From the IMG/VR virus record IMGVR_UViG_3300042566_000324, positions 1 to 43,283 of that record: a stretch of DNA of 43,283 bases, one strand, 5' to 3'. Shown here one piece after another: positions 4,208-33,094 of this stretch (its first letter is position 1; each line of letters starts with the position of its first letter). A program made the translations under genes and the position numbers. The notes under the pieces are model-generated. The model made no database searches. It saw only the letters and a list, made by a program, of their open reading frames with translations, and was not told the DNA's origin. The stretch comes from a virus.

Positions 4208-4395
4208 CTGTTTTCTCCTTAAATTTTGTTGTGAAGTTATTCTTGTAGGGAACTCCAATGTAATTATGTTGATTGTTCGGTCACACCTTATAGAGAAGGG
4301 TATTCATTAATCAACGATGTCTTGTAATCTTATAATAAAAAAATAAGATATTTGGTAATAAATATGTAAATTTTTTAGAAAACTAAAGAAAACTA
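4208..4395 (-). promoter_or_regulatory. Leader of the scaffold/capsid genes with an SD sequence
   Basis: This 188-base stretch holds no gene that I can support. It separates bS21 from the scaffold gene. An AAGGAG Shine-Dalgarno sequence lies at 4215-4220 before the scaffold ATG, unusual in this window where most starts have none. Further upstream is a very AT-rich segment (4325-4375) with a 7-bp inverted repeat (4327-4333 with 4343-4349) and no following U-run. The stretch is long enough to carry the promoter for gp22-gp23, but I cannot point to the exact element. Confidence 0.45.
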
Positions 4396-5949: not shown

Positions 5950-6540
5950 TTAGTTTAATTCTATTATAATTTCTCTCATTAAATCTTGCGACTTACACCA
6001 CTTACCACATTCCTCTGCCACCTTTGCCCATTGTTTACTTTCGTTCATAGGAGCCATAAATGCACCATGTGTAGATGGATTAGATACAAAATCCCAACCT
6101 ACCAGTTCAAAATCTTCCTGAACCATTACAGTTCCATCTTTTAATTCTTTTACGGAACCTAAACCTCTTGATGAAATTCCTAAACGAATATTATTCTTTA
6201 ATAATTCTTTTAATATATTACCAGATGGAGTTGAAAGAATTTCTACTACACCACATACATCATCACCTTCCCAATAGATTTCTCTAATATTATGTGATAC
6301 ATTTTTTAAATTGATAACCGGAGATTCTGGATGGTCTAATTCACCCAATGCTCTTCTTTCCTTAATAAGTTGTTCGTATTTTTTACACTCTCTTTCTAAG
6401 ATTTCTCTAGGATATCTTCTATGATTTTGATTTGGAGCACCTGCTCTTTGTAGGATTCCCTTAACTAAATAAGTTCCGTTTTCTTCTTGTTGAAGTTTTG
6501 CTTCAAACAAATGTGTTTCTATCAATAATCCTTTACTCAT
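5950..6540 (-). CDS. gp21: Prohead maturation protease, T4 gp21 type
   Basis: A 196-aa serine protease (T4 gp21 is 212 aa) that cleaves the scaffold and the capsid N-termini during head maturation. The family signature is clear: GELDHPES at residues 66-73 supplies the catalytic His70, and GISSRGLGS at 121-129 the nucleophile Ser (123/124). The conserved tail ELVGWDFVSNPSTHGAFMAP at about 145-165 closes the domain. The N-terminus contains LFE-A (residues 11-14), a plausible self-cleavage site of (I/L)xE type. The start codon overlaps the stop of the preceding gene (TAATG at 6540). Position between portal and scaffold is canonical. Confidence 0.93.
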   Translation of the reverse strand: MSKGLLIETHLFEAKLQQEENGTYLVKGILQRAGAPNQNHRRYPREILERECKKYEQLIKERRALGELDHPESPVINLKNVSHNIREIYWEGDDVCGVVEILSTPSGNILKELLKNNIRLGISSRGLGSVKELKDGTVMVQEDFELVGWDFVSNPSTHGAFMAPMNESKQWAKVAEECGKWCKSQDLMREIIIELN

Positions 6541-11619: not shown

Positions 11620-13227
11620 TTACTTAAGTAACCAAGTTAGGTTTTCTTTATCACCTCTACCCAAATCCATTTCATATGGATTTTGTTTTAAATGATTTGT
11701 TGTTATCAATCCTTCATATTTATTTATATGTGCAGAATTTAACATTTGTTTTGTTAAATCTATACCCTCTTGTTTTAATCGTAATGCAGTATTACGAACC
11801 CAAAGGCCAATACCTAACGCCATAATAAGGTCATCGTTGTATCCTTTCATCGCTTCTGCTCTACCACTATGCCAAACAAATGTAAACATTTCATCTATCA
11901 ATCTACTTGAACGAATTAGAATATCTTTATCATTTATATAGGTGTCTAATGCCGATATGATAAGTGGACGAGTTTTACTGGTTGTCGAAAATCCTGCCAC
12001 CATTTGTCTTTCATCTCTATAATATTTGTTAGACATTTGTCTTTCGGTATCAATATATTTCAAATCATTACTCATATAGAATAAATTTTGATATCCTCTA
12101 TTGATAATTTGTTGAATACATGCCCAACCGACATTTGAATTCTCCACTATTAAAAGTGCATTATTATATTCGGTTGCAAGTGCTGTTAGGAAATTACCGA
12201 AATCTTTTGTTTCAATTTTACCTCTATATTCGGCAACTTGTGAACTATCTTCGATATCAATTACTTGTGCAGTAGAATAATCGGCTCCATCACCTCTGGC
12301 CACGTCGGCTGATATCATATAAGCTCTATTATAGTTTGGATGTTCCCATACCCAAAGATTGTTATCAAATCCTCTTTTTTGTGCAGGTTCCATTACATAA
12401 GTGTCCTTATACCAAGTCAATAATGCGGGTTCAAAAACAGTATCACCCGAACCAACAAAGTCACAATCACATTCCTGCGCTGCACCTTTAACTCCTAATA
12501 TACGAGTTTGTTCATCTCTCCATGCCTGATTTCTTTCTGGGTGAACTGTCCAATGTAGATTGATATTATTAAATCCGTTTTGACCACTCTCACCATCTAC
12601 CCACATTTTATGAAACCAGTTACCAATACCATTTGGAGTAGACAATACGATTGCAGAACCACCCGTTGATAAGGTTGATTGAGCTGATAACCAAATTTCA
12701 TCAATATCTCTAATGAATGCAGCCTCATCCACAACTAATAAGGATAGGGCTTCCGAACGACCTGCGTCTGGAGAACTTGCGATTGCTTTTACTTGTGAAC
12801 CATTTTTTAATTTAAGGGAAAGTTTGTTATCTTCTGCAGCCGCAGTTCCACCATCTCTCAACCAAATAGGAAGCAAATCGTGCATAACTCTTACCTTCTC
12901 TACCAGATTCTTAGCTACAGTCACTTTCGTTGCAATTACCAACGCATTGAAGTCCTGATTGAATATCATCTTCCAAAGAATAAACCCTGCAGATAAGGTC
13001 GATAGACCCAACTGACGAGATTTAAGAATAATGTTAAAACGATTGTCTTTGAAGTCTGTTAAACATTCTTCCTGGAAAGGATAAAGGTGAAAGGGAATTT
13101 TTCCTCTCACCGGATGCTGAATGACACAATACTTTTTCATAAAGTAAATTGGGTCTAACGCACACTTGCGATATTCTTCAGCAATTATCTCTTTTAAGGT
13201 TTTCTTAGGTTGCCCTTGAACTCCCAT
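11620..13227 (-). CDS. gp17: Terminase large subunit, T4 gp17 type
   Basis: A 535-aa packaging motor ATPase and headful nuclease (T4 gp17 is 610 aa). Residues 69-77 (KSRQLGLST) form a Walker A of the variant type in which the Lys sits at the start of the loop rather than before Ser/Thr. Walker B is LLVVDEAAF (163-170) and the coupling motif is VLSTPNG (193-199). The C-terminal RuvC-like nuclease shows ISADVARGDGADYS (first Asp), LIVENSNVG (Glu) and YNDDLIMALG (last Asp). The start overlaps the preceding stop (TAATG), with no Shine-Dalgarno. A small terminase subunit is not obvious nearby, although the 222-aa protein upstream is a candidate by position. Confidence 0.95.
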   Translation of the reverse strand: MGVQGQPKKTLKEIIAEEYRKCALDPIYFMKKYCVIQHPVRGKIPFHLYPFQEECLTDFKDNRFNIILKSRQLGLSTLSAGFILWKMIFNQDFNALVIATKVTVAKNLVEKVRVMHDLLPIWLRDGGTAAAEDNKLSLKLKNGSQVKAIASSPDAGRSEALSLLVVDEAAFIRDIDEIWLSAQSTLSTGGSAIVLSTPNGIGNWFHKMWVDGESGQNGFNNINLHWTVHPERNQAWRDEQTRILGVKGAAQECDCDFVGSGDTVFEPALLTWYKDTYVMEPAQKRGFDNNLWVWEHPNYNRAYMISADVARGDGADYSTAQVIDIEDSSQVAEYRGKIETKDFGNFLTALATEYNNALLIVENSNVGWACIQQIINRGYQNLFYMSNDLKYIDTERQMSNKYYRDERQMVAGFSTTSKTRPLIISALDTYINDKDILIRSSRLIDEMFTFVWHSGRAEAMKGYNDDLIMALGIGLWVRNTALRLKQEGIDLTKQMLNSAHINKYEGLITTNHLKQNPYEMDLGRGDKENLTWLLK

Positions 13228-14595: not shown

Positions 14596-17500
14596 TTAAG
14601 AGTAAAAAATACCAAGTATTTGATTTAATGGTGCAAATGTACCCGTTAATTTATAAGTTTTACCATTGTAAAAGAATACCAATCCTTCATTTGCTACTAT
14701 TTTATCAATACCACCCAATTGATTTAATCGTTCTAATTCCGATTTTAGTTTTTGGATTTGTGTTGGATTTCCTGCAGTTCTGACTTGGTCTGCAACTTGT
14801 TTGAATTTTTGTTTCATTGCTCTTATTGCATTTTCAGGATGAACGGTTAATACACTTCCAACAAAGTCTAAAACATCTGCACCAACTCCTAAAAATATTT
14901 CTTCAAATGGTTTTATATTTTCTTTTTGTTGTTTTGCAACATTTACTTTATCATTTTGCATTGCCCATTTTTGCAATTCTACATTTGAAATTGTATTTAA
15001 TCTAAATGATTTATCACCAAATGCCCATCTTCTAATTAAAGATTCTTTTGTAAGTTTGTCAACTTTTACTGGACTATTTGATGTAATCCACCAATCCCAC
15101 CAACTTTGATGATAATCTGCAACATTATCGTTATCTTTTAAATGAAATTCTGATTGTAATTTGTTTAATTTAGATAAATATTTACCTTGCTTAGAACTAA
15201 GGTCTGCGGATTTTGGAATTGATGTAATCGGTGGTCCTTGAATTGTATACTTTGATTGAACATCTGCGTTTACTTGTTTAATCATTCCAGCTAATGTAGA
15301 AGCTGCCGAACCATCTGCACCAATTGCTTCACCTTTTTCATTATAACAAGTTGTATTATGAAATACTAATAAAGCCTGTCCATACGGAATTACATTAACC
15401 GAATCTGGCCATATTACTTCCAAATTCATAAAACATTTTCCCTCATTAAATATTTTTTTTCTTTGAGCTTCCGAAAGAGATTGAATAGCTGCCGATAAAT
15501 CTTTCATTGCAAAATTGTATGCATCGGTTAAACCACCTCTTCCACCAAACTTGGATGCAACATCTTCTATACCCATTGCATTTTCTCCTGCATTTGCTAG
15601 GTTACCTTTATTACGGGCTGCAATTAATCTACCATTTTTCCAACTTATTGCTAAAGCTTGTCCGTCTGTTTTTTCTCTAACTACTCCTAAATCACCATTA
15701 AGTGCTTTTGTGATAATATTTTTTAAATCACCAAAAGTTAAATCCATATCATCGAATGGATGTGACATATGCCCATATGCACCACCTTCCATCAATAATC
15801 CTTCTTTAATAAATTCGGTTTTTACATATTCTATATCTGGTAGGTTTTTTATACTATATGTAATCGTTCTCTCCTCTGCATCTTCATCGCCAAATATTGC
15901 ATCTGCTTTTGGAAATTCCGTTTGAGTATACCCACCATTTTTATACCAATCCTCACTCTTATCGGTATTTAATTTTCTTTTTTTACCTTTTTTAATAAAT
16001 GAACCATCTGGAACATCAGCTGTGTTTGCGGTTGCAACATTACTAACTTCGTTTAAATCGGGTTCAATGTTTAATTCTTTTTCCATTCTTGTAATATCAT
16101 CATACCCCATATTACGAAGTTCTCTTGCTACATCATTTGGATTATTATGATTTGGATTGCCAAATAAAAATGCATTAATTCTTTTTCTGTATTTAGAATC
16201 TCTATATAATTTAATAATATTTTTAAAATGAATATCTTTATTACCCATTTCGTAAATATTTTGTCCTTTTTTACCAATTCTAAATGTAGTTGCTTGCTTA
16301 CCATTGATTGTTGGCATTCCGTGGTCATCGGTTCCAATATCTTTAACGGTAACTTTTTTGTTTTTAAATTTGCCCATTAAAACTTCATCCCCTTTGTTCA
16401 CATTTACATTTATATTTTCATTATAAATTTGTTTATTTATTTTACCATAATTTCTCATTAAGATACCAGCAACAGCATGAGCTTGATTTTCAATTGGAGA
16501 ACCGGTTGCACCATCTTTAACTTCATCTCTCACTAAACCCAATTCATCTTGTTTCCTATGAACCATTTCGTGTGCAAGTGTTCTTAAAATATCAGCAGTT
16601 AATCTACCTTCAATTGCAACATATATTTCTTTAGACATTGGATTATATCCACCTAAACTGGTTTTTGCTTCTGAATATTCTTTACCTGATACTAATGTTA
16701 TTTTTGGTTGTTCTTTTAATTTTAATTTTTTAGTTGCATATTCTACAAAGTGATTTATAGAATTTTGTTTTGATTCAGAAATATTTTCTCTTAATAAGTT
16801 TGCAGCGTTTTGCTTTGGTTTATTTTTTTTATAATCTTCAATTGATTTAAGAAGTTGTTCGTCTGATAATTTATAGGTTTTCATTTTTTCAATTACTTTA
16901 CCAATAAAATTATAAATAAATTTTTGACTACCATTTTCTTTATTTGTATCAATACTTTCTAAAATACCACCAGTTGCTGCCGATAATCCAGCTCCTGCAA
17001 ATGGTGCATGGTGAGCTTGTAATCCCAATGTTTCAAATGATGCATGTTTTATAATATCTTTACCCAAATGTAAACCAAACGAAGTTGCACCATGCGTAAA
17101 TGCACCAACAGTTGATGTACTACCTGCTGAAAGTGCTGCCATTAACCCCTTTCCTGCTACTGCCGCCTTTACACCACCTACCGCAAATGCACCCAATGCA
17201 ATTGAACCTAAGATTAATGCACTATCAAATGCAAAATCCCACATATCTTTCTTTTGTTTTTTGGTTTCTTTCCAAGATGCTTCAAATAATTTCTTTTGTT
17301 CATCGGTAGCGGATTCCGATATTTTTGGTTTTTTTTCTTTTTTCTTTTTTCCTGTTGGTTGACCATGTGAATCTAACACATCGGTTTCAACTTCTTCATA
17401 TTCTTTTTTACCATCTGGCCCAACGGAAGTAAATTCACTCCAATGTCTACGTTTTCCGTCTTTGTCTTTTATGGTACCAATTTTACCAGTTTTTGAAAGT

Positions 17501-18942
17501 GATATTAGTGCATCCATAGTTCCACCAACTATTTCTTTTTTATGATGAAACCAGTTTTTAATTCCTTTTCCAAATTTTGAAACACCCTTTAATATTGTAT
17601 CTACTACATTTTTTCTTTCTGGAGATTCCGGATTATTATATAAATCAATGTCTTTATTATCTTCTGCAGACATTTCTTTTCTAGCTTTGTCGATTGCATC
17701 TTTAGTTTGTGCTGCAATTTTATCTGCAGGTGTTGTTTCTGCAGATGACTTTAATTCGGTTCCACTTAATTTTTGTTCAGGTGGTGGCCCTTGTTCTTCT
17801 CCAGGTGTTGTTATACCGGCTGCGTTTGGTTGTTCTTTATCAATTTTACCTTGTGCAGTTTGGTCTTTTTTAGTTGGTTGTCCCGGTTGAGCAGGCTTAG
17901 CTGATTGTGTTGCAGCTTTTCCTGGTTCTTCTTTTTTCTTAGGTTCATTTACAGGAGCATCATCTGGTCCTAATATTTTTGCAGCTTGTACATGTGCAGG
18001 ATGTTCTTTTGGTAATCTTAAAGCATTTCTCGCTTTAATTTTTTTTGGTCTACCTTTGCTATCCGTATATGGAATTTCAACATCCAATGCTTTATTTACA
18101 TCTTCTTCAAAATAGTTTTGGGCCCAAACTTCGAACATCTCATTTGTAATAACCCTTTCTATTATTTCTGAAATTGGGTCATACGGGTCATTTTTTTTGT
18201 GCCAATCAGGTTCATCGGATGGATGTTCTTTTTCATGTCTTGTAGGATGTGGTTCTGGTCTCATTTCGTAAGATGGGTTTGTATTATTACTTTCATCTAC
18301 TGAACCCGTTGGTGCACCATTAATATATCCTCCTGGTAAATTTAATCCAACTCCTATACCACCCGGAAAATCTTCGTTTAATTTTGATGTTATCATCTTA
18401 AAAATATCTTTGTCAAATTTTGGATATGCTTTTAAGAAAAACTTTTTAGCTTTTTCTTTATCATTATTTCCTAAACCATTTCTAACCTCTGTTCCACTAA
18501 TTGGATTCTCTTCGGCAGGAATTGGATATGTGTAACCAATTTCATCATAACCATATCCAGCTTTACCTTTATATGGTTTAAAATATTTACCTTGCAATCT
18601 TGTAGCATCCTTTTCACCAACTGCTGCAATATATGCAATGGTTTGTCCATCGTATTTTTTTAATATTTCAACAGGTCTATACGGATTATTTACTTTTACA
18701 AATTTAGTAGACGGAACACCAAACATCTTAGTTGCAATTTCCTTTTTTTCATTAAAAGAAAATGGAGATTTATCAGAAGATGTATCGTTTGATGTTGCAA
18801 TATAAACATTTGCAGAACCAAATTCGTTTACCAAATTTTGATATGCTGCATAATGTCCTTTATGAAATGGTTGGAAACGACCTGCGTAGATTGCTACTTC
18901 ACCTTGTATTTTTGGTTTATCTTTTTCTAATAATGAATTCAT
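14596..18942 (-). CDS. 1448-aa nucleotidylyltransferase/metallopeptidase/ligase-like fusion
   Basis: A giant three-enzyme fusion. (1) Residues 15-185: HxGH nucleotidylyltransferase (GRFQPFHKGH at 21-30, ISGTEVR at 148-154), closest in pattern to NMN/nicotinate or other small-molecule adenylyl- or cytidylyltransferases. (2) 320-560: Pro/Gln/Lys-rich disorder, then a Gly/Ala hydrophobic stretch at 570-615. (3) About 720-840: zincin-like peptidase, LAHEMVHRKQDELG (HExxH 791-795) with ENQA at 818-821 as third ligand. (4) About 1045-1448: covalent nucleotidyltransferase (ligase) fold: REKTDGQ with Lys1091, ARNKG, NLE (Glu1174), EGLVFF (1419-1424) and YKLTG with Lys1431, matching motifs I, III, IV and V; I recall related sequences as DUF6267. 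It lies upstream of the packaging genes. Substrates are unknown; a virion-carried enzyme is conceivable. Confidence 0.8.
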   Translation of the reverse strand: MNSLLEKDKPKIQGEVAIYAGRFQPFHKGHYAAYQNLVNEFGSANVYIATSNDTSSDKSPFSFNEKKEIATKMFGVPSTKFVKVNNPYRPVEILKKYDGQTIAYIAAVGEKDATRLQGKYFKPYKGKAGYGYDEIGYTYPIPAEENPISGTEVRNGLGNNDKEKAKKFFLKAYPKFDKDIFKMITSKLNEDFPGGIGVGLNLPGGYINGAPTGSVDESNNTNPSYEMRPEPHPTRHEKEHPSDEPDWHKKNDPYDPISEIIERVITNEMFEVWAQNYFEEDVNKALDVEIPYTDSKGRPKKIKARNALRLPKEHPAHVQAAKILGPDDAPVNEPKKKEEPGKAATQSAKPAQPGQPTKKDQTAQGKIDKEQPNAAGITTPGEEQGPPPEQKLSGTELKSSAETTPADKIAAQTKDAIDKARKEMSAEDNKDIDLYNNPESPERKNVVDTILKGVSKFGKGIKNWFHHKKEIVGGTMDALISLSKTGKIGTIKDKDGKRRHWSEFTSVGPDGKKEYEEVETDVLDSHGQPTGKKKKEKKPKISESATDEQKKLFEASWKETKKQKKDMWDFAFDSALILGSIALGAFAVGGVKAAVAGKGLMAALSAGSTSTVGAFTHGATSFGLHLGKDIIKHASFETLGLQAHHAPFAGAGLSAATGGILESIDTNKENGSQKFIYNFIGKVIEKMKTYKLSDEQLLKSIEDYKKNKPKQNAANLLRENISESKQNSINHFVEYATKKLKLKEQPKITLVSGKEYSEAKTSLGGYNPMSKEIYVAIEGRLTADILRTLAHEMVHRKQDELGLVRDEVKDGATGSPIENQAHAVAGILMRNYGKINKQIYNENINVNVNKGDEVLMGKFKNKKVTVKDIGTDDHGMPTINGKQATTFRIGKKGQNIYEMGNKDIHFKNIIKLYRDSKYRKRINAFLFGNPNHNNPNDVARELRNMGYDDITRMEKELNIEPDLNEVSNVATANTADVPDGSFIKKGKKRKLNTDKSEDWYKNGGYTQTEFPKADAIFGDEDAEERTITYSIKNLPDIEYVKTEFIKEGLLMEGGAYGHMSHPFDDMDLTFGDLKNIITKALNGDLGVVREKTDGQALAISWKNGRLIAARNKGNLANAGENAMGIEDVASKFGGRGGLTDAYNFAMKDLSAAIQSLSEAQRKKIFNEGKCFMNLEVIWPDSVNVIPYGQALLVFHNTTCYNEKGEAIGADGSAASTLAGMIKQVNADVQSKYTIQGPPITSIPKSADLSSKQGKYLSKLNKLQSEFHLKDNDNVADYHQSWWDWWITSNSPVKVDKLTKESLIRRWAFGDKSFRLNTISNVELQKWAMQNDKVNVAKQQKENIKPFEEIFLGVGADVLDFVGSVLTVHPENAIRAMKQKFKQVADQVRTAGNPTQIQKLKSELERLNQLGGIDKIVANEGLVFFYNGKTYKLTGTFAPLNQILGIFYS

Positions 18943-18963: not shown

Positions 18964-19089
18964 TTAGAAATTATTATAAACAAATGGGTCTCTCTTTTTG
19001 AGTTCTTCTAGTTTTTTCTTAAATCTTTGTTTTCTTTTTCTATCTTCGTATAATTTTACAAAGAATGATATTATTGGCCAATTTTTCAT
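18964..19089 (-). CDS. Conserved 41-aa basic protein
   Basis: A 41-aa protein, MKNWPIISFFVKLYEDRKRK at the start and KKKLEELKKRDPFVYNNF at the end. Its ATG overlaps the stop of the HAD gene (ATGA at 19086-19089), a strong sign of real translational coupling. It combines a short hydrophobic N-terminus with a basic amphipathic helix and a conserved-looking RDPF-Y tail; I have seen similar miniproteins in environmental T4-like phages. Function unknown. It fills the gap between the sugar block and the 1448-aa gene. Confidence 0.7.
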   Translation of the reverse strand: MKNWPIISFFVKLYEDRKRKQRFKKKLEELKKRDPFVYNNF

Positions 19090-19454
19090 AATAATGATTT
19101 TAATTTTGTTTTTGCTTCATCCAACCCCATTGCTTTATCATCTATAAGTAAATCGTAATGAATTTTACCCATATATAATCCGTTATGTTTTACACCCCAT
19201 TTTTCCAAACTACTTAATGTTATATCATATAGTTTTGAATATATTTCTTTAACATCACCATTCAATGTATTCATACCTCTTGCAGTATAAATATATATTG
19301 TATATCCTTTATCATATAATGAATTAGATAAATCTATCATTTCTTGTATTGGTTCACAATACTGATACTTTTCTATTCCCAATGATTCTTTATCGTTGGG
19401 ACGAAAACACAATGTATCATCTAAATCAAATGCTAAAATTTTTTTATTGTTCAT
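19086..19454 (-). CDS. HAD-superfamily phosphatase
   Basis: A 122-aa minimal HAD phosphatase. Motif I is FDLDDTL (Asp10 nucleophile, Asp12 acid), motif II YTARGM (Thr), motif III/IV LLIDDKA with a preceding Lys in MGKIHYD. It has no large cap domain, like the small HAD enzymes found in capsule and lipopolysaccharide loci that remove phosphate from sugar or polyol intermediates. It overlaps the aldolase-like gene by one base upstream and the 41-aa gene downstream. It probably dephosphorylates an intermediate made by the neighbouring aldolase-like or kinase domains; the substrate is unknown. Confidence 0.85.
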   Translation of the reverse strand: MNNKKILAFDLDDTLCFRPNDKESLGIEKYQYCEPIQEMIDLSNSLYDKGYTIYIYTARGMNTLNGDVKEIYSKLYDITLSSLEKWGVKHNGLYMGKIHYDLLIDDKAMGLDEAKTKLKSLL

Positions 19455-20407
19455 TATGGTAAATTATTTAATTTTATTTTAATTGTATCTTTTATTATAT
19501 TTGTTATATCATTTAAAATTGGTAATTTATCATAATTGTAATGTCCACATATTTTTATTAATGATAATTCATCTTTAATATCAAAATCATTTACATTATT
19601 TACCCATCTTATCCATTTTTTTGATTCTAAACATATTTTATAAAATTCAGTTATTTCTTTTTTATTCATATGTTGTAAATAGATATCCGTTTCAATCTGT
19701 GCTATTTCAGGACCTATATTAATACTATCAATGCCAGCATCAAATCTAATGCTCAATTCTTCGTTTGATAAATAATCTCCATTATGCTCTTTTACTTTTT
19801 TATCAAAAGATTTAACAACATCAATCATCTCTTGCATTCTTTTTTTATCAAAAGAACCTATATTTTTTCTATTAACCAAATCAATTGCAACTCCGGATTG
19901 AATTACAACATATTTTATATTAGAAAATTCCTGATTAGTTAAACTTGTTTTTAAATATTTTAGGATTCTATTTAAATCTACGTTTTCAAATTTTTTGATG
20001 GTTTCTTCCGTTCCAATTTCGTAAAATACATTTGGATTTAATTTATATAATAATTTTATAGTTTCTTCTGTTGAAATTAGACCATCTAATAATTGATTAC
20101 TATAAAATTTCCATGGGTCTATATGAATTATATTAAAATAATCCAAATCATTTATATATGACACCTTACCATCATCTTCCGTTATACCTTGCCATTCACC
20201 ACCGTGGTCTCGTCCTATTACAATATTATTACTTTTGCTTTTTACATAATTTGTAAACTCTTTAGTATCCCAACCATTTACATATCCACCATTCCAATCA
20301 ATTTGTCTTCTAGTTGGTATTAATCCAAATTTACTTGAATTAATTTCAATTACAGCATCTACAATATTTTTTGATATTGGACATATAAAATATTTTGGAT
20401 TATTCAT
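19454..20407 (-). CDS. GatZ/KbaZ-like class II aldolase family protein
   Basis: A 317-aa TIM-barrel protein resembling the GatZ/KbaZ family (subunits of D-tagatose-1,6-bisphosphate aldolase) and related sugar-phosphate enzymes found in surface-polysaccharide loci. Visible blocks are GLIPTRRQIDWNGGYVNGW (28-46) and IVIGRDHGGEWQG (62-74), the IDPWKFYS strand end, and YEIGTEE. Full-length GatZ is about 420 aa, so this is a short version. It overlaps the AroE-like gene by 8 bases. A role in splitting or joining a phosphorylated sugar is suggested by the family, but a role as a non-catalytic partner is equally possible. Confidence 0.65.
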   Translation of the reverse strand: MNNPKYFICPISKNIVDAVIEINSSKFGLIPTRRQIDWNGGYVNGWDTKEFTNYVKSKSNNIVIGRDHGGEWQGITEDDGKVSYINDLDYFNIIHIDPWKFYSNQLLDGLISTEETIKLLYKLNPNVFYEIGTEETIKKFENVDLNRILKYLKTSLTNQEFSNIKYVVIQSGVAIDLVNRKNIGSFDKKRMQEMIDVVKSFDKKVKEHNGDYLSNEELSIRFDAGIDSINIGPEIAQIETDIYLQHMNKKEITEFYKICLESKKWIRWVNNVNDFDIKDELSLIKICGHYNYDKLPILNDITNIIKDTIKIKLNNLP

Positions 20408-21023
20408 AATCTATTTGTGTATATAATTTAAATTGTTCTATTGCTTGTAATCGTGCAATTTCCTTTCCATCCATTGTAAATGGTCTTGCATCAATTATTA
20501 TATTGGTGTTTGATTTTATTTCAATAGGTGTCGCATTTATAAAATATTGGTTAGTAACATCATCTATATTTGAAATATCATTTCTATTTACGATTGAGAA
20601 ATTGATGTTTAATTTTGAAAATGCATACATAATTGCTTTTGCAAAACCACCGGTTCCAATTATGTTTATATGTTTTATTGGTTTATTTTTAAAAAAATTA
20701 TAAACTCCAATCCAATCGGTATTATATCCGTATAGTTTTGAATTATTTATTATAACCGTATTACATGCACCGATGTTGATAACGGAATCATCGTATTCAT
20801 CCAAATAATCATATACTTCGGTTTTTAAAGGCATACTTAATGCAAATCCTGCAAATTGTAAGTGTTTGGTAGACTGAATAGTTTGTTCTATGTCTACCGA
20901 ATAAAATGATTTGTATATTGCATTTATGTTATATTTTTTAAATGCGTTATTAAAAAATATACAACCATTATTTCCAGGATTATCTGAAAATGAACCATAT
21001 AGTTTAGTATCTTTATCTATCAT
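20400..21023 (-). CDS. Short shikimate dehydrogenase-like protein (AroE family)
   Basis: A 207-aa AroE-family protein (usual length about 270 aa). The substrate-site signatures are intact: FALSMPLK ends in the catalytic Lys67, GACNTV is at 85-90, and GYNTDWIG at 99-106 carries the catalytic Asp103. The cofactor loop IIGTGGFAKA (121-130) is the NAD(P) glycine loop. The N-terminus starts at the usual YGSFSDNPGNN equivalent of the G-x-P-x-x-x-S motif, with S retained but changed spacing. The C-terminal helices that close the active site are missing or rearranged. Given its sugar-biosynthesis neighbours it may reduce a keto group on a sugar-like ring rather than 3-dehydroshikimate. It overlaps both neighbours. 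Confidence 0.75.
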   Translation of the reverse strand: MIDKDTKLYGSFSDNPGNNGCIFFNNAFKKYNINAIYKSFYSVDIEQTIQSTKHLQFAGFALSMPLKTEVYDYLDEYDDSVINIGACNTVIINNSKLYGYNTDWIGVYNFFKNKPIKHINIIGTGGFAKAIMYAFSKLNINFSIVNRNDISNIDDVTNQYFINATPIEIKSNTNIIIDARPFTMDGKEIARLQAIEQFKLYTQIDYE

Positions 21024-22923
21024 AGTTAGACATTAGTTCTATTGATTTAAACCACAACATTTTACTAAACTTTTCATTGTGTAAGGGAGCCATATTTAAA
21101 AATATAATAGAAGTTAACAATTTAACTTTCTTTAAATCAAAATTATTTTTTGTTATCCAGCTTTCTAAATAACTTTTAAATTCTATTAATGAATGTGATA
21201 TTTCAAAACTATAATTAACAGAATATTCACCTCTAAGAAATATTATATTATTTTCATCTTTCATAGAATTATATGGAATTAAACATCCACCATATAATTT
21301 TGCCAAATCGTAATATAAGTCTCCAGATGTAGTTAATCCGGCAAAGGATTCTCTCCAATCTATGTATATAAATTCATCCGTATTAGAATTATATATAACA
21401 TTATCGAATTGTAAATCACCATGAAATAATTTATAAAATGGATTGGTATGAAAATCTTTAAAATTTACTTTTGATAATAATGATTTCATACTATCATATT
21501 CAATACCATTAATATTATGCTTTGAATTGTAATAATCATTTGAATATTTTTTTAAAAATAATTCCAATCTATGATTTGTTTTGTTTATGTAAAAATCATC
21601 AATATAATTTGAATAATCACCATTTTCTTTTATATCAAAATTTGATTTAAATTTTTCTAAAAATTTCTTATATAAATCAATTGAATTAATTTCATATAAA
21701 GTTTTACCATCTTGCCATTCGTATGATATAAAGTTATTAGTATAATTGAAGCCAGACGGTATTTGATTTTTTAATTCTTTTGCTCTAATTATTCTATTGT
21801 TTAGAACTGATTTATTTGGTGTGAATTTTATAAATAAATTATTTTCTTTATATGTTATTTCACCATTGTTTTTTTGTAAAGATAATGGATTGTCTTTTAA
21901 ATATTCTTTTGTTTTGTTCAAATCATCTAAATTGCCGGTATCTAACCATTTTAGTTTTTTAGCTTTAAATGTTGGATATTTTTGTGGATTTTCAAAAGCA
22001 GACACTATTTCACCATCTATAATATTATTTTCCAATTCTTTCCAGAATATATCATAATCCCACATTCCCGCTAAACCAATAAATGCCATATCAAATCCAT
22101 TTACATTTTTATTAGAATATTTTATTATATTATCATTATCTAATAAAACCGTTGAGTATTTTTCAGGATATGATGTTGGTTGTATACCCAACCAATTACC
22201 ATCCAGATATGGTAGTGGTGAATCTATCAAACAATCACAGGTTGTAATATAAAATGGTCTTTGAAGTAAATTTTTACATTTTAGAGCAGAGTATCCTGGA
22301 CCCGAATCTTTACCTTCTATATTGTCTATTTTTACAAATGTAAAATTGTGATTAGGAAATGCTAATTTACAATATTCTTCTACTATATCTCCTTTATAAC
22401 CAATAGCAATAATAAATTGATACTCTTTTGGAAACTTTTCAATTATATGAGAAATTATTGCACGATTATTAATAGGTAAAAGTGCTTTGTTTGTATATTG
22501 TGTAAGCGTTTCTAATCTAGACCCAATACCAGCTGCCAATATTAATACTGCGGGTGTTTGGTGTTCTCCTTCTATTTTTCCATTTGCTCTATGAAACTCA
22601 TCATCAATTCGGATAACATCATCTACCTCTGGTGTAGAAACTTCTTGTAAAATAATATCAGTTAATGCAATAACTCTATGTTTTTTTGGTGGAGTTACAT
22701 TAAAATATTCTCCAGCTTTCATTAATTTTTTTTCAACAACACCATTATCATTTTCTAACCATATTTCAGCTTCACCTGATATTATATAGTTTGTTTCTCT
22801 TTTAAGATTATGATATTGAAAAGATGTTTTATATCCTGCATTTATATAAATCCTTTTGTAACAGTACCTATCATTTAATTCCAACCATTCTTCTTTACCC
22901 CATGGTTTTATAACCGTTTTCAT
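21013..22923 (-). CDS. Cupin / NTP-transferase / APH-type kinase fusion
   Basis: A 636-aa three-domain protein. Residues 1-105: cupin like the type II mannose-6-phosphate isomerase domain (KPWGKEEWLELNDRYCYKR, YHNLKRETNYIISGEAEIWL). Residues 124-345: sugar-NTP transferase of GT-A fold (LILAAGIGSRL at 128-137, NKALLPI with Lys147, TTCDCLID with the metal Asp230). Residues 355-636: APH/choline-kinase-like phosphotransferase (HGDLQFDN at 501-508, YIDWRESF with Asp522). One chain could therefore phosphorylate a small alcohol or sugar and then activate it as an NDP or CDP derivative, as LicA plus LicC do for phosphocholine. The substrate is unknown. It heads the minus-strand precursor genes and overlaps the AroE-like gene by 11 bases. 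Confidence 0.88.
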   Translation of the reverse strand: MKTVIKPWGKEEWLELNDRYCYKRIYINAGYKTSFQYHNLKRETNYIISGEAEIWLENDNGVVEKKLMKAGEYFNVTPPKKHRVIALTDIILQEVSTPEVDDVIRIDDEFHRANGKIEGEHQTPAVLILAAGIGSRLETLTQYTNKALLPINNRAIISHIIEKFPKEYQFIIAIGYKGDIVEEYCKLAFPNHNFTFVKIDNIEGKDSGPGYSALKCKNLLQRPFYITTCDCLIDSPLPYLDGNWLGIQPTSYPEKYSTVLLDNDNIIKYSNKNVNGFDMAFIGLAGMWDYDIFWKELENNIIDGEIVSAFENPQKYPTFKAKKLKWLDTGNLDDLNKTKEYLKDNPLSLQKNNGEITYKENNLFIKFTPNKSVLNNRIIRAKELKNQIPSGFNYTNNFISYEWQDGKTLYEINSIDLYKKFLEKFKSNFDIKENGDYSNYIDDFYINKTNHRLELFLKKYSNDYYNSKHNINGIEYDSMKSLLSKVNFKDFHTNPFYKLFHGDLQFDNVIYNSNTDEFIYIDWRESFAGLTTSGDLYYDLAKLYGGCLIPYNSMKDENNIIFLRGEYSVNYSFEISHSLIEFKSYLESWITKNNFDLKKVKLLTSIIFLNMAPLHNEKFSKMLWFKSIELMSNYDR

Positions 22924-22975
22924 AACTATTTAGTTTATATCGTAAAGATACAAATATTTTTTTAATTTACCAAAA

Positions 22976-23722
22976 TTAATTTACTTCCAAATATCGCAAT
23001 ATCTCATCTTTTAAAAAATATGGATTCATTGGAAATTGTATACTTATTCCCCAACTATCCAAACGTGTATCGTGAAAATCTCTTGCATTAAATATTGCAA
23101 TTCTACAATCAAAATCATAAATAATATCATTAACATTATCATATATAAACAATGTTTTACTTTCAGACATTATCATATGCAATTTATAAGTTGTTTTTAC
23201 AAATTGTAAATAATTTTCATTTTGTTCATTTTTCAAACATGTTTCATAATCAAAATCAACCAAATTATATATTGGATTTGTATCTTCTAAAATTGATGTT
23301 ATTTTAAAATCATTTTTATTTAATAATAAATTATGAAATGAATTTGTCAATTCTTTTTTATAATCAAAAGAAAACGTCTCCCACGACCTATTGTGTTGAA
23401 CGGATGGTTGTGCATCTCTATGCAATAAAACAGAATTTACATCTTTTGCTGAATATCTAATATTAAATGGGACTACTTCTTTGGAAAACGATTTAATGTA
23501 ATTCCAAGTGTGTGGTAAAGCCGTTCTTTGTCTATTTTGAAATTCATCATTTCCATTCCAATCAGGACCATTATAACCAACAAATATTTCTACACCATTC
23601 ATATCTTGTTTTTCTTTATATTCGGCAAGTTCTTGCATTGATAAATTTAATAAATTTTCATCTACAAAATTTTCTAGTGAAATGAATGGAAGTTTGTTTC
23701 TATTTTTGTATACACCAACCAT
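22976..23722 (-). CDS. Possible 2OG-Fe(II) oxygenase-like protein
   Basis: A 248-aa protein with no clear family name. A possible iron site is visible: VLLHRDAQP gives His101-x-Asp103, and FNARDFHDTRLDSWGISIQF near the end gives a distal His217 and Arg220, in the order HxD...H...R of 2-oxoglutarate/Fe(II) dioxygenases. The long insert between them (residues 105-200) is Asn/Lys-rich. Phages often carry such oxygenases near structural or sugar genes. It is divergently oriented to the plus-strand island, with 52 bases between start codons. The call rests on a spaced motif only; it could also be an unrelated beta-barrel protein. Confidence 0.45.
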   Translation of the reverse strand: MVGVYKNRNKLPFISLENFVDENLLNLSMQELAEYKEKQDMNGVEIFVGYNGPDWNGNDEFQNRQRTALPHTWNYIKSFSKEVVPFNIRYSAKDVNSVLLHRDAQPSVQHNRSWETFSFDYKKELTNSFHNLLLNKNDFKITSILEDTNPIYNLVDFDYETCLKNEQNENYLQFVKTTYKLHMIMSESKTLFIYDNVNDIIYDFDCRIAIFNARDFHDTRLDSWGISIQFPMNPYFLKDEILRYLEVN

Positions 23723-23774
23723 ATTGCTTTTATTATAAATATGTTTTTGTATATTTATTTTTAAAGTTTATATA
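23723..23774. promoter_or_regulatory. Divergent promoter region
   Basis: Only 52 bases separate the start codons of a minus-strand gene (23722) and a plus-strand gene (23775). Both promoters must lie here or inside the coding ends. The stretch is over 80% A+T and holds a TATAAATA octamer at 23733-23740. No operator-like GC palindrome is visible. Confidence 0.5.
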
Positions 23775-24323
23775 ATGAGTTATAATAAATGGGATGAGTT
23801 CATAGAAACTCCATCAAAAAAATTTGGATATCAAGTTCCGTCATTTCAACCATCCGTTTTTAGGGAATATAGAGGTGAAATATTTACGACTTTCCATTCG
23901 GAAGAGCATCCTGCAATGAGGCATGTTCATTATGATAAAAATGAATTATCAATTCATAGTAGATTTTCTCGTTCTTACAAAGGTGTATTGAGAGGATTAC
24001 ATGGTGATAATAAGACATGGAAATTGGTTCAAGCTACCGTTGGAGACATTTATTTAGTTGTATTGGATGCAAGAGAAAGTTCCGATACATATGGAGATTG
24101 GGAAAGTTATATTATAAGTGAAAGATTAAGAAATCAAGTTTTAATTCCACCAGGATTTGTAAATGGACACTATGCATTAACTGATTGTATGTTTCATTAT
24201 ACCCTATTATACAATGGTTCGTATGTCGATTCTCCGGAACATAAAGTAATTAAATGGAATGACCCAGAGTTTCAAATAGAATGGCCTACAAATAATCCAA
24301 TACTTCAATCAAAAGATAAATGA
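23775..24323 (+). CDS. RmlC-like sugar 3,5-epimerase
   Basis: A 182-aa cupin-fold protein of the dTDP-4-dehydrorhamnose 3,5-epimerase family, the same length as RmlC. Visible are GVLRGLHGDN (70-79) with the catalytic His76, KLVQATVGDIYLVVLDAR (83-100) with its Asp98, the DTYGDWESY segment, and IPPGFVNGHYAL (124-135). It should epimerise an NDP-4-keto-6-deoxy sugar, a product of an NDP-sugar 4,6-dehydratase such as the SDR two genes downstream. It opens the plus-strand island and its stop overlaps the next start (ATGA at 24320). The first 30 residues diverge from typical RmlC. Nucleotide specificity cannot be read. Confidence 0.88.
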   Translation: MSYNKWDEFIETPSKKFGYQVPSFQPSVFREYRGEIFTTFHSEEHPAMRHVHYDKNELSIHSRFSRSYKGVLRGLHGDNKTWKLVQATVGDIYLVVLDARESSDTYGDWESYIISERLRNQVLIPPGFVNGHYALTDCMFHYTLLYNGSYVDSPEHKVIKWNDPEFQIEWPTNNPILQSKDK

Positions 24324-24952
24324 TAAATTATTTAAAAAATCATCCAATTGTGAAAGAATCACAATATACAAAAGATGATTTAATAAAATTTGAAAGATTA
24401 ATTGCAGACCATTGGGAATCAGGTAGAATAAAAGGGCCTGTGCATCTTAGTGGTGGGAATGAAGATGAGTTAATTGAAATTGGAAAAAGAATATCCCCAT
24501 CGGATTGGGTTTTTTCAACTTGGCGTTCTCATTATCATGCATTGATTAAAGGTATTGACCCACAATGGTTAGAGAATGAAATATTAGAAGGAAGGTCTAT
24601 TACAATTGTAAATAAAGAACAAAAATTCTATTCAAGTGCAATTGTTGGTTCTATTATTCCTATTGCAGTTGGTGTAGCAATGGCAAATAAAAGAAATGGT
24701 AATGATGATAAAGTATGGTGTTTTGTTGGTGATATGGCGTTTGAAACTGGCGGGTTTTATGAAATGAACAAATATGCAGAACGATATGATTTACCAATTA
24801 CATTTGTAATAGAAGATAATGGAGTATCAACAAATACACCAACGGAAGCAACCTGGAATGGTCAAAAAAGAGACATCCCAAGTAAAACAATATGGTATAA
24901 CTATGAAAAAAAATGGCCGCATTACGGAACAGGAAAATGGGTAGTGTTTTAA
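24320..24952 (+). CDS. E1-alpha-like TPP-dependent enzyme subunit
   Basis: A 210-aa TPP-binding subunit resembling the alpha chain of pyruvate/acetoin dehydrogenase E1, but about 120 residues shorter. Residues 102-125 (FYSSAIVGSIIPIAVGVAMA) are the typical helix before the cofactor loop. The TPP/Mg motif is GDM-x26-DN (FVGDMAFETGG through FVIEDNGVST), a GDG-x26-NN variant. The N-terminal STWRSHYHALIKG segment corresponds to the conserved HPLYLA-type region. Its last 16 bases overlap the SDR gene. With the beta-like subunit at 25949 it could transfer or remove a two-carbon unit on a sugar or keto-acid precursor. No E2 or E3 gene is present, so ordinary dehydrogenase function is unlikely. Confidence 0.8.
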   Translation: MINYLKNHPIVKESQYTKDDLIKFERLIADHWESGRIKGPVHLSGGNEDELIEIGKRISPSDWVFSTWRSHYHALIKGIDPQWLENEILEGRSITIVNKEQKFYSSAIVGSIIPIAVGVAMANKRNGNDDKVWCFVGDMAFETGGFYEMNKYAERYDLPITFVIEDNGVSTNTPTEATWNGQKRDIPSKTIWYNYEKKWPHYGTGKWVVF

Positions 24953-25947
24953 TAACAGGAATAACAGGAATGGTAGGTTCACATTTAACGGATTTTTTAT
25001 TAGAAAATACCGATTGGAAAATATATGGGTTTTGTAGATGGAATGATAATTTGGAAAATATAGAACACCTTTCTTCGGAAATAAATAATGGTAAAAGATT
25101 ATCATTAATATATGGTGATTTAAATGATTTATCTTCATTAATTAATGCCGTAAACATTTCTAAACCAAAATATGTATTTCATTTAGCTGCACAATCTTAT
25201 CCACAAACTAGTTTCATTTCTCCAATAGAAACATTACAAACAAATATAATAGGAACTACAAATTTATTAGAATCACTAAGGTTGTCAAATTGTAAAGATG
25301 CGATAATTCATATATGCGCATCATCGGAGGTTTTTGGTAAAGTTCCAAAAGATAAATTACCAATAGATGAAGAGTGTGGATTTCATCCAGCATCCCCATA
25401 TGCCATATCAAAAGTTGGAACCGATTTAATTGGTAGATACTACGCCGAAGCATATGATATGCGTGTTATGACAACAAGAATGTTTACACATACAGGCCCA
25501 AGACGTGGAGATATATTTCACGAATCCACTTTTGCAAAACAAATTGCAATGATTGAAATGGGATTACAAGAACCAAAAATATATGTTGGAAATTTAGAAT
25601 CACTTAGAACATATGCAGATGTTAGAGATGCAGTTAAAGCATATTATATGTTAGTAACGATTAATCCAATAAAAGGTGAATATTACAATATCGGTGGAGA
25701 ATATACATGTGAGGTTGGTGATACATTAAATTATTTAATAAACAAATCAACAATTAAAAATATAGAAATAGTAACGGATGTCGATAGACTTAGGCCGATT
25801 GATGCCGATTTACAAGTTCCCAACACTACAAAATTTAAAAAACATACTGGATGGGAACCAACAATACCCTTCAATAAAACAATGGATGATTTATTAGAAT
25901 ATTGGAGGGATAAAGTAAAAACAGGTAGAAAATTTTTAAAAAGATAA
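24937..25947 (+). CDS. GDP-mannose 4,6-dehydratase-like SDR
   Basis: A 336-aa extended SDR; I start it at the ATG at 24937 (MGSVLITGITGMVGSH), preceded by AGGAA, rather than an in-frame ATG eight codons upstream that lies inside the previous gene. NAD(P) loop TGITGMVG (7-14), CASSEVFGK with Ser130 and Glu131, and YAISK with Tyr155 and Lys159 give the dehydratase-type catalytic set of GDP-mannose 4,6-dehydratase. Further agreement: THTGPRRGDIFHESTFAKQI and a YNIGGEYT block. It should convert an NDP-hexose to its 4-keto-6-deoxy form, which the RmlC-like protein could epimerise. It sits between the two TPP-enzyme halves. Confidence 0.88.
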   Translation: MGSVLITGITGMVGSHLTDFLLENTDWKIYGFCRWNDNLENIEHLSSEINNGKRLSLIYGDLNDLSSLINAVNISKPKYVFHLAAQSYPQTSFISPIETLQTNIIGTTNLLESLRLSNCKDAIIHICASSEVFGKVPKDKLPIDEECGFHPASPYAISKVGTDLIGRYYAEAYDMRVMTTRMFTHTGPRRGDIFHESTFAKQIAMIEMGLQEPKIYVGNLESLRTYADVRDAVKAYYMLVTINPIKGEYYNIGGEYTCEVGDTLNYLINKSTIKNIEIVTDVDRLRPIDADLQVPNTTKFKKHTGWEPTIPFNKTMDDLLEYWRDKVKTGRKFLKR

Positions 25948-25948
25948 T

Positions 25949-26497
25949 ATGAATAAACCAGAATATACACCATATAAAGATGCATTAACAAATGCGATGT
26001 CAGAAATTGCTAAAATAGAAAATTCAATTTTCATTGGCCAACAGATTTTATTTTCAGGAAATCCAATGAGCACAACATTAGATGGAGTTTCAAAAGATAA
26101 AATGATTGAAGTTCCTGTTATGGAAGAATCTCAAATGGGAATGAGTTTAGGTATGGCTATGACTGGAAACTTTGTTGTTACCTTTTATCCTCGTTGGGAT
26201 TTTTTAATTTGTGCTACAAATCAATTGGTAAACCATATTGATAAAATTGGTTTAATGAGTAATAACAAATGGAAACCAAATATGATTATCCGTGTTGGCA
26301 AGGGTAGTGATAAACCATTAGACCCAGGTCATCAACATAAAGGAAACTATTTTGATGAATTTAAATCAATGTGTCCTAATATTGAATTTCATAATTGTAT
26401 GAGATGGCAAGAAATTGAATTGTCATACAAATATGCTATAAACAATGGAGGTATTAATCTTATTGTTGAATATCCTGAGTTGTATTATTCCAACTAA
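25949..26497 (+). CDS. E1-beta-like TPP-dependent enzyme subunit
   Basis: A 182-aa protein matching the pyrimidine-binding domain of E1 beta chains and transketolases. The sequence VPVMEESQMGMSLGMAMTGN (about 52-71) holds the catalytic Glu that protonates TPP, and DFLICATNQLVNH with IRVGKGSDK and DPGHQHKGN follows as in E1-beta. The usual C-terminal transketolase_C domain is absent (E1-beta is about 325 aa). It starts directly after the SDR stop and is the likely partner of the alpha-like subunit at 24320. Its 3' end overlaps the convergent minus-strand gene by 38 bases. Confidence 0.8.
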   Translation: MNKPEYTPYKDALTNAMSEIAKIENSIFIGQQILFSGNPMSTTLDGVSKDKMIEVPVMEESQMGMSLGMAMTGNFVVTFYPRWDFLICATNQLVNHIDKIGLMSNNKWKPNMIIRVGKGSDKPLDPGHQHKGNYFDEFKSMCPNIEFHNCMRWQEIELSYKYAINNGGINLIVEYPELYYSN

Positions 26498-26891
26498 CTT
26501 CCCATACTTGCATATCAGCTGCTAGACAATCTATTTTATAATCCTTTCTACCACCGGATACTTCTTGTATTTTGTTTTTAGCTGTGTTTCTAATACCATT
26601 CAGTCCATGAGTAAGTTCCAAACTATTACCATCTTTGATTCCTTTACGAACATTTGATTCGTTGTGCCAGATATGTAAATTCATTTGCGATAATACTACA
26701 ATTGCTCTTATTGTTTCGGCAGTAACAACACCTTTATTTTCATCTAAACACATTTGAATATCATGCACAATATCTTGGATTTCTTTTGCATATTCGGATT
26801 TGTGTTCTGGAATAAATACTTCTTTTAACTGTACAATGGATAATCTATCTACCAATTCACTTAAAGTTGGTAAGTATTTTCTGTGTTTCAT
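26460..26891 (-). CDS. Conserved phage protein of unknown function
   Basis: A 143-aa protein that I recognise as a recurrent, unnamed protein of environmental T4-like phages: RKYLPTLSELVDRLSIVQLK at the start, HIWHNESNVRKG in the middle, LTHGLNGIRNTAKNKIQEVS and GGRKDYKIDCLAADMQVWEV near the end. It is helical and has no metal or nucleotide motif. The ATG overlaps the stop of the SGNH gene upstream (ATGA). It is the last gene of the long minus-strand glycan block and ends inside the convergent E1-beta gene. Function unknown. Confidence 0.75.
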   Translation of the reverse strand: MKHRKYLPTLSELVDRLSIVQLKEVFIPEHKSEYAKEIQDIVHDIQMCLDENKGVVTAETIRAIVVLSQMNLHIWHNESNVRKGIKDGNSLELTHGLNGIRNTAKNKIQEVSGGRKDYKIDCLAADMQVWEVSWNNTTQDIQQ

Positions 26892-27670
26892 ATTTTATTT
26901 TTTATAAATTTTAAAAATTCTTGTGAAAAATTATAGTGCCAATTTTTTCCAGGATGTTCACCATCTCTGGCCAATTTATCATTTTTATAACAATTTTTTG
27001 GTTCAAAAAATCCATGATAATTTATAGTATAATTTAATTCGGGTTGTAATTCTTTAAATACATCATAATAATATCCTGCAACCGTATGAAATATTTTTAT
27101 ATTATACAATTTTGCAATAGTTTCTACAAATTTATAGGATTCCCAAAATATCATTAAGTCTTGATAATCATTTCTCAATTCTAAAAATAATAAATCTTCG
27201 GTTTCATTTTTCCAAACTATATCTTTACTATGTGCAGTTCTAAATCCACCCACTTTTTTAAAAGAACCATCATCTTTCATATAATCTCTTCTACTAAATC
27301 CAGGCCACATTATTAATACTAAATTTGGAGTAAATTGTGATGATACAAATTTATAAAATGTTTTTGCAACAAAAGAAGTTGATACACCATACATTGAGTA
27401 GTTAAATGTTTTTCCAAATTCATTACCAATTAACATTGGCCACGTTTCATCCACATTAAGACCGATTCCCATAGTCCAAGAACAACCCAATGTTAATATG
27501 TTAAAATCTGACTTTTCTTTTATTGAATTAGAACGATACCCATGTTCATTCATATCATATACAATGGTTCCATCGTCAATCAAATCGGTTGCTAATGTTG
27601 ATAGTTTTTTATTTTTATATTTTTCTAATACAAAAATATTATCGGATAGTATGTTTTCTATATTTCCCAC
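26888..27670 (-). CDS. SGNH-hydrolase-like protein (copy 1)
   Basis: A 260-aa SGNH/GDSL-type protein. Block I is LTLGCSWTMGIG with nucleophile Ser64; the C-terminal block V is ARDGEHPGKNWH with Asp236 and His239. The long middle is aromatic-rich. The start is a GTG at 27670, preceded by AAAGGAAAG and lying inside the last codons of the GT10-like gene. SGNH enzymes are esterases or O-acyltransferases, often acting on acetylated glycans. It is one of four such proteins in this block and the most distant in position, separated from the others by the GT10-like gene. Catalysis is likely but the substrate unknown. Confidence 0.72.
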   Translation of the reverse strand: MGNIENILSDNIFVLEKYKNKKLSTLATDLIDDGTIVYDMNEHGYRSNSIKEKSDFNILTLGCSWTMGIGLNVDETWPMLIGNEFGKTFNYSMYGVSTSFVAKTFYKFVSSQFTPNLVLIMWPGFSRRDYMKDDGSFKKVGGFRTAHSKDIVWKNETEDLLFLELRNDYQDLMIFWESYKFVETIAKLYNIKIFHTVAGYYYDVFKELQPELNYTINYHGFFEPKNCYKNDKLARDGEHPGKNWHYNFSQEFLKFIKNKI

Positions 27671-29097: not shown

Positions 29098-29885
29098 ATC
29101 CAATTATTTTTTTTAAGTTTATTTAAAACATCATTATACACTTTTATATGACCTTCTTTAGAAGTATGTAATGTATTTAAATCATCAGGAAAATCAATAG
29201 CTAATTTGTGCCAATCTACATTTACCAAATATTGTTTATCAATATAATTTGCAAATTCAATATCCCAGGTTAATATACAATGTTTTATATTATTCTTTTT
29301 AAGAAGCATGTGTGCCATATTTATTATACCTATATCAAATTGTCTTTGTATTTTTTCATCAAAAATTTCTGCATAAAAATCTCTAAGAACTTTCATTTTT
29401 TCGTCTGGTTCTTTTCTAAATTTTGCAAAGTAATTTCCTGTTTTATGGCGTGTATTCATTATATTGTCGACATAATCTACTACACCAAAATAATTTTCGG
29501 TAAACATTTTTCCAACATAATTCGGGTCATTTTGTAGTGGATTTTCCAAAAGATATTGATATGTATCTTTGCCAAATGGTGGATATTGATGATAGTTTAC
29601 ATCTGTTAATTTTATATCAGGATTGGCCAATTGTGTATCATATGGAAACCAATCTACTCTATTATAACTTGTGACACTTAGACATAATAAATCTATATCT
29701 TTTACATTTTCTAATGCATATTTCACCTGTAATAATATGGAAAAATTCGTACTAGACCCTTTTGCAAAATTAATTAATTCTTTGTTTAATTTTTCAGCAA
29801 GTAATGAACCATATGGTTCTTTTTTTAAATCATGTACACCAATTCCGATATTAAAGGAATCTCCACAAATAACTAATTTTCCCAT
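29094..29885 (-). CDS. SGNH-hydrolase-like protein (copy 2)
   Basis: A 263-aa SGNH-type protein. Block I is VICGDSFNIGIG with Ser10 at the very N-terminus. The region around residues 30-50 (LINFAKGSSTN) resembles block II/III with Gly and Asn. The C-terminus HTSKEGHIKVYNDVL has two His (240 and 246) in place of a full DxxH. It lacks a signal peptide, so it acts in the cytoplasm. Its stop overlaps the GT10-like start (ATGA) and its start abuts copy 3. Likely an acyl esterase or transferase on a glycan; substrate unknown. Confidence 0.72.
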   Translation of the reverse strand: MGKLVICGDSFNIGIGVHDLKKEPYGSLLAEKLNKELINFAKGSSTNFSILLQVKYALENVKDIDLLCLSVTSYNRVDWFPYDTQLANPDIKLTDVNYHQYPPFGKDTYQYLLENPLQNDPNYVGKMFTENYFGVVDYVDNIMNTRHKTGNYFAKFRKEPDEKMKVLRDFYAEIFDEKIQRQFDIGIINMAHMLLKKNNIKHCILTWDIEFANYIDKQYLVNVDWHKLAIDFPDDLNTLHTSKEGHIKVYNDVLNKLKKNNWI

Positions 29886-31410: not shown

Positions 31411-31411
31411 A

Positions 31412-32278: not shown

Positions 32279-32281
32279 AAT

Positions 32282-33088: not shown

Positions 33089-33094
33089 AAAAAA

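Follow-up and report, generated by a model that had tools for sequence, protein, structure and literature searches.

The window analysed here is the whole 43,283-base stretch of the virus record IMGVR_UViG_3300042566_000324, and our subject is a single gene on its minus strand that encodes a polyprotein of 1448 amino acids (aa). An earlier reading of the letters alone (the sequence-only reading) had proposed that this chain joins a nucleotidyltransferase, a zincin metallopeptidase and a ligase-like domain, that this combination is very unusual, and that the product might be a self-processing or virion-borne enzyme. Our computational analysis found one uninterrupted frame with an HxGH nucleotidyltransferase (NTase) at the N-terminus, an HExxH zincin-like domain in the middle and a C-terminal ligase-like domain with ligase motifs, here called LIG. 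All of the named motifs lie where that reading had placed them: HKGH and ISGTEVR in the NTase, HEMVH (791-795) followed by E818-N-Q-A821, and KTDG, ARNKG (1109-1113), NLE, EGLVFF (1419-1424) and YKLTG in LIG. The gene and its two terminal domains are as follows.

14596..18942, minus strand, stop included: polyprotein open reading frame (ORF), 1448 aa, a single open frame with an ATG start
18373..18924, minus strand: HxGH nucleotidyltransferase, NadM/NMNAT-like, residues 7-190 (PF01467, 2.8e-6; phrog_395, 6.9e-13)
18853..18864, minus strand: HKGH motif (27-30), its last His invariant among the aligned relatives
18481..18501, minus strand: ISGTEVR motif (148-154), with S, G, T and R invariant
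14599..15786, minus strand: LIG, predicted RNA-ligase-like covalent nucleotidyltransferase domain (1053-1448), from the AlphaFold2 model and Foldseek against the PDB
15661..15672, minus strand: motif I, KTDG (1091-1094), predicted lysine adenylylation site, with K, D and G invariant
15607..15618, minus strand: ARNK motif (1109-1112), with A, R and K invariant
15418..15426, minus strand: motif III, NLE (1173-1175), with Glu invariant and a strand in the AlphaFold2 model
14701..15309, minus strand: helical insert between motifs III and IV (about 1212-1414), from DSSP of the model
14683..14688, minus strand: motif IV, EG (1419-1420), invariant
14641..14655, minus strand: motif V, YKLTG (1430-1434), 14 residues before the C-terminus, with Lys invariant

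LIG was aligned with 54 relatives, the most distant of which is 37% identical. Residues K1091, D1093, G1094, R1110 (Ia-like), E1175, E1419, G1420 and K1431 are invariant in this alignment, and the same holds for a second set, in which some relatives are 34-38% identical. Because the motif residues do not vary among such distant relatives, the ligase motifs are beyond chance. AlphaFold2, run on the same alignment, gave LIG a predicted local distance difference test score (pLDDT) of 87.8 and a predicted template modelling score (pTM) of 0.84, and predicted the covalent nucleotidyltransferase fold that the sequence-only reading had expected for residues 1045-1448. When the model was compared with the PDB using Foldseek, the top 25 matches were all RNA or DNA ligases, with archaeal Rnl3, T4 Rnl1, Naegleria Rnl5 and T4 Rnl2 in the lead. 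Among predicted viral structures, the matches include NTase-LIG proteins of this family as well as RNA ligases already known from phages. LIG is very probably a covalent nucleotidyltransferase with a ligase-type fold.

LIG shares with the Rnl RNA ligases its predicted fold, the motifs I (KxDG), III, IV and V in order, and the lack of an oligonucleotide-binding (OB) domain. The C-terminal OB domain with motif VI, as in DNA ligases and mRNA capping enzymes, was not found in LIG, and there is no room for one because the chain ends 14 residues after motif V. LIG differs from the Rnl ligases in its helical insert of about 200 residues, in stopping just past motif V, in being fused to an HxGH NTase, and at the sequence level, where it matches neither an RNA ligase family in Pfam nor an RNA ligase chain in the PDB: Pfam searches with LIG (36 members, E up to 1) gave no RNA ligase profile, and a PDB sequence profile search gave no ligase, the matches being due to chance in both cases. 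In two relatives (L078:12240-13420 and its equivalent in L079) KTDG itself is interrupted by a split intein, right after the catalytic Lys and before the Thr, a placement that we count in favour of the ligase reading; the two halves are separated by an ORF that matches PF24308 and may encode a homing endonuclease. An RNA intron at the L078 insertion was considered and rejected, as there was no Rfam match and the joined intein halves match PF14890 at 1.9e-11. A further relative has its ligase domain in two ORFs of 132 and 273 aa (L086:2411-3661), which may reflect a pseudogene or a sequencing error.

The NTase matches the Pfam family CTP_transf_like (PF01467) with an E value of 2.8e-6, in agreement with the enzyme class that the sequence-only reading had given it. 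NadM-type nicotinamide mononucleotide (NMN) adenylyltransferases (NMNATs) are its nearest solved relatives and its best NCBIfam and PDB relatives, and it carries their HxGH and SxTxxR signatures (GRFQPFHxGH and SGTxxR in the NadM-type enzymes, including the phage NadM with Nudix). The NMNAT profile NF002243 was matched by 31 of 31 relatives, although far under its curated cut-off (31.8 bits against 127). The match to the NadM type lies mainly in the N-terminal third, and the window NTase differs further in being fused to a ligase and in having no NadV partner (none was found in 12 large relatives). The HxGH nucleotidyltransferase class is secure but the substrate is not, because the NMNAT matches are so far under the cut-off and because relatives outside the freshwater clade often have GPHH.

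We then searched for related proteins in IMG/VR, where at least 455 stretches related to the whole protein and at least 580 related to LIG were confirmed; LIG was also found in 3 of 50,697 phage records. The terms freshwater and marine are used below as labels for two sets of loci (from the whole-protein search and the LIG search) and not for the habitat of each contig. There are 96 LIG ORFs complete at both ends, from independent contigs, and in 89 of them the NTase stands ahead of LIG, so that the order NTase before LIG recurs widely in other phages. Of the seven in which no NTase was detected, two are C-terminal pieces split off by an intein and two are parts of a single broken frame; the others are a gene with LIG alone, L048, and L167, which is NTase-like by BLAST in its N-terminal part. 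In nearly all loci with enough downstream sequence, the large terminase gene follows the polyprotein gene by about 0.5-3.8 kb. Given this constant order and the retained synteny with terminase, we conclude that the NTase-LIG fusion is a stable gene of uncultured T4-like phages. The ratio of nonsynonymous to synonymous substitution rates (dN/dS) is about 0.06-0.30 in the enzyme domains, indicating purifying selection, and about 0.33-0.52 in the faster-evolving linker. The combination of domains is thus less unusual than had been thought: the NTase-ligase fusion is widespread among uncultured T4-like phages, and the zincin alone is specific to one clade.

Other domains accompany this core in the relatives. 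Among 43 N-terminal parts scanned from the LIG set, a P-loop kinase was identified in 15, Nudix in 2, an RNase T exonuclease in 1 and a CCA/poly(A) polymerase with an RNA-binding domain in 1 (E 1e-29). Other genes of the RNA-ligase family are present in 3 of the 12 large relatives. The literature search found nothing on the NTase-ligase fusion itself. A close counterpart is the 'cytidylyltransferase like protein' of Microcystis phage Mel-JY01 (WWT39297.1), which has NTase and LIG in one 639-aa chain upstream of terminase; compared with the window protein it has no zincin or middle region, and the identity is about 38%. A relative of 1906 aa (L166:540-6257), from a contig binned as Flavobacteriales, combines in its one chain the complete head domain of a CCA/poly(A) polymerase with a segment resembling ParB.

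The features of the middle of the polyprotein are listed here.

16795..18372, minus strand: variable linker region (191-716), largely missing in compact relatives (relatives' alignment; dN/dS)
17131..17244, minus strand: hydrophobic Gly/Ala-rich segment (567-604), from a hydropathy scan, its character conserved in relatives
16426..16794, minus strand: zincin-like metallopeptidase domain (717-839), confined to the freshwater clade, with HExxH and a later Glu invariant
16558..16572, minus strand: HEMVH (791-795), by motif position
16273..16425, minus strand: mobile 'GKFKNKK...GMPTING' module of about 50 aa (840-890), in varying places in relatives

In the compact relatives (L022, L025, L036, L041 and L051-L053) approximately residue 217 is joined to approximately residue 717. 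Of the complete relatives, 61 of the 63 freshwater ones have HExxH and 0 of the 29 marine ones do. Both HExxH and the downstream Glu, as third ligand, are invariant in 31 sequences that include two short cyanophage proteins. The case for the proposed zincin comes from motif and conservation and not from fold: metallopeptidase profiles match weakly, a PDB sequence profile search with the domain gave no matches, and an AlphaFold2 model of residues 540-895 was of too low confidence to serve as evidence and gave no significant match in a fold search. The GKFKNKK...GMPTING module moves among positions and proteins, and forms a separate ORF in L120/L124:6978-7286. In Synechococcus phage S-SRM01 (L083:7941-9894) a stand-alone zincin gene lies immediately before a cytidyltransferase gene, whose product begins MKNFHQFITEA, resembling a T4 capsid targeting sequence.

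The window also contains a head gene cluster, identified using PHROGs, with terminase large subunit, gp21-like maturation protease and major head protein. The T4 prohead protease cuts after Glu in [LI]xE-like sites, for example LIE-9, and T4 internal proteins have short N-terminal targeting propeptides, of 7 residues in Alt (PMC9026906). Sites of this form lie at the domain boundaries of the polyprotein.

18925..18942, minus strand: N-terminal leader MNSLLE (residues 1-6), ending in [LI]xE ([LI]xE enrichment)
18373..18381, minus strand: LNE (188-190), putative protease site at the NTase end ([LI]xE enrichment)
16774..16782, minus strand: ISE (721-723), possible protease site ahead of the zincin, ISE or LSE in most freshwater relatives
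15787..15798, minus strand: LLME (1049-1052), putative protease site before LIG, with GG following ([LI]xE enrichment)
11620..13227, minus strand: terminase large subunit, conserved downstream gene (phrog_2, 6.2e-47; conserved synteny)
5950..6540, minus strand: prohead (gp21-like) protease, candidate processing enzyme (phrog_207, head maturation protease, 1e-52)

Of 63 distinct N-termini of the family, 51 have [LI]xE among their first 8 residues, compared to 29 of the 593 other ORFs in these loci. Where the NTase ends, the motif is present in 41/42 freshwater relatives (mostly LNE) and 23/27 others (LFE or LYE in most cases), the rate at random positions being about 0.10; just before LIG it is present in 42/42 and 15/27, respectively. 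The putative sites persist in the marine clade, where HExxH is absent, and self-processing by the zincin was therefore rejected; the prohead protease is a better candidate. As to a virion-borne enzyme, the support is indirect, from these sites and the location beside head genes. Like the T4 internal head proteins (IPI-III and Alt; PMC9026906), the window protein has a short leader that ends in an [LI]xE-type site, and a protease like gp21, which cuts IPI-III and Alt in T4, is encoded nearby; compared with these proteins it is much larger, and may be cut internally as well. We consider it rather likely that the polyprotein is packaged in the head, and an even matter whether the prohead protease processes it.

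We therefore propose, as a reading with about an even chance of being right, that the gene encodes a late, head-associated, protease-processed polyprotein of the 'polyvalent' type, for RNA repair and counter-defence. Its invariant core would be an NMNAT-like HxGH nucleotidyltransferase followed by a ligase that adenylylates its own Lys1091. The leader would direct the polyprotein into the prohead, where the protease would cut after [LI]xE at residues 6, 190, possibly 723, and 1052, freeing the NTase, a zincin-containing middle piece and the ligase. The pieces may then enter the cell with the injected DNA, and the ligase could seal RNA that defence nucleases of the host have cut, tRNA being the likeliest substrate, while the NTase would restore or modify nucleotides, with nicotinamide adenine dinucleotide (NAD+) as the best guess. 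RNA end repair fits because the pair of an HxGH NTase and an RNA-ligase-type domain is conserved, and kinase, polymerase and exonuclease domains occur in relatives. Injection fits because of the head-gene location and the leader sites, and T4 sets an example, with proteins that are targeted through their N-termini, cut by gp21 and injected (PMC9026906, PMC3012670). A wider version is a more tentative suggestion: an RNA-repair and nucleotide kit, packaged in the head and processed by the prohead protease, with which uncultured T4-like phages of both the marine and the freshwater set deliver a new ligase family along with the genome. Kinase, CCA/poly(A) polymerase, exonuclease, Nudix and zincin would be its exchangeable partners.

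Several observations count against this proposal. The Foldseek E-values for LIG are 0.017 (Rnl3, the best) or worse, with the leaders at 0.02-0.5, and the global template modelling scores are low, probably in part because of the helical insert. The first His is often replaced outside the freshwater clade (GPHH or similar for HxGH), so that the NTase may not be active in every member of the family, and a NadV-type gene is missing from the 12 large relatives. Nearly half of the non-freshwater relatives lack [LI]xE before LIG, often having Met for Glu, and hence a cut at this position is not universal. The [LI]xE counts come from related, non-independent sequences; for this reason, and because the third site is missing in some, the enrichment is suggestive and not proof. 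Finally, the partner P-loop kinases match AAA_33/zeta toxin and may not be polynucleotide kinases, and the window's own protein has none of the RNA-related partner domains of its relatives.

The strongest alternative, although unlikely, is that the protein is an ordinary cytoplasmic multidomain enzyme, made late, neither packaged nor processed, in which the [LI]xE motifs are incidental parts of helices at domain ends. The loss of the Glu before LIG in part of the marine clade counts in favour of this reading. However, at three boundary positions and in both clades the L/I and E are kept while x varies, far above background, and the gene lies among head genes.

A second alternative concerns the substrate of LIG, which could be DNA: LIG may be the phage's own DNA ligase, closing nicks, next to the terminase, in DNA that has been replicated or is being packaged, or repairing the entering genome. 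The gene is next to terminase in both clades. A recognisable ATP-dependent DNA ligase (PF01068) is absent from 11 of the 12 large relatives and an NAD-dependent DNA ligase (PF01653) from all 12, which speaks for a DNA role; however, genes may be missing from incomplete contigs, and a phage can rely on the ligase of its host. RNA ligases come out ahead of DNA ligases when folds are compared, motif V is followed by neither an OB domain nor motif VI, and RNA-related partners occur in relatives, among them the CCA/poly(A) polymerase fused in L166. For these reasons we lean slightly towards RNA as the substrate and regard the DNA reading as rather improbable.

It is more doubtful that the whole protein is centred on NAD, with the NTase making NAD+ and LIG using it or making NAD-like or adenylylated products, so as to counter NAD-depletion defence and not to repair RNA. 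NadM-type NMNAT is the nearest relative of the NTase in every relative tested, Nudix is fused in two relatives as it is in NadM, and NAD+ salvage by phages is known (PMC9503650). However, phages bearing NadM are reported always to carry NadV (PMC9503650), the gene not found in the large relatives; the NTase scores are far under the NMNAT equivalog cut-offs; and Pfam recognises no NAD-ligase Ia domain. A built-in Ia domain, suggested by the conserved segment HPFDD, was dropped as a candidate since, compared with LigA, this segment lies too close to the catalytic Lys. The narrower claim of our own proposal, that the NTase produces NAD+, seems possible but is less than probable. The last alternative, an assembly join or annotation artefact of separate genes, had been raised by the sequence-only reading and has nothing in its favour, and the independent contigs described above make it negligible.

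Our proposal places the protein among the polyvalent proteins. According to passages of PMC5512222, these have several unrelated enzymatic domains per chain in terminase-portal phages, as this family has; zincin, ParB-like and nucleic-acid domains, also present among members of this family, are included, with zincin the commonest domain of all. HxGH NTase and RNA ligase are not described as polyvalent domains in those passages, whereas that pair is the constant core here.

The family thus comprises a ligase with intact-looking catalytic residues, encoded beside packaging genes, with at least 580 relatives in uncultured phages, and is not in Pfam. If it is packaged, phages could equip the cell for RNA repair, and possibly for NAD+ synthesis, as the genome enters and ahead of any gene expression, and the prohead protease could process an enzyme polyprotein; the head-packaged kit, if true, would mean an RNA ligase carried in a virion. 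Phage Mel-JY01, whose recorded host is Microcystis elabens, makes packaging directly testable.

Elsewhere in the window, upstream of the major head protein, a scaffold-like protein is encoded at 2975-4258, which is very acidic and repetitive with many Glu/Asp runs. The region 19086-38096 is a long stretch of apparent sugar or surface-glycan genes, mostly judged by eye from translations, which includes cupin/nucleotidyltransferase, epimerase-like, glycosyltransferase-like and radical-SAM-like proteins and split transketolase-like halves.

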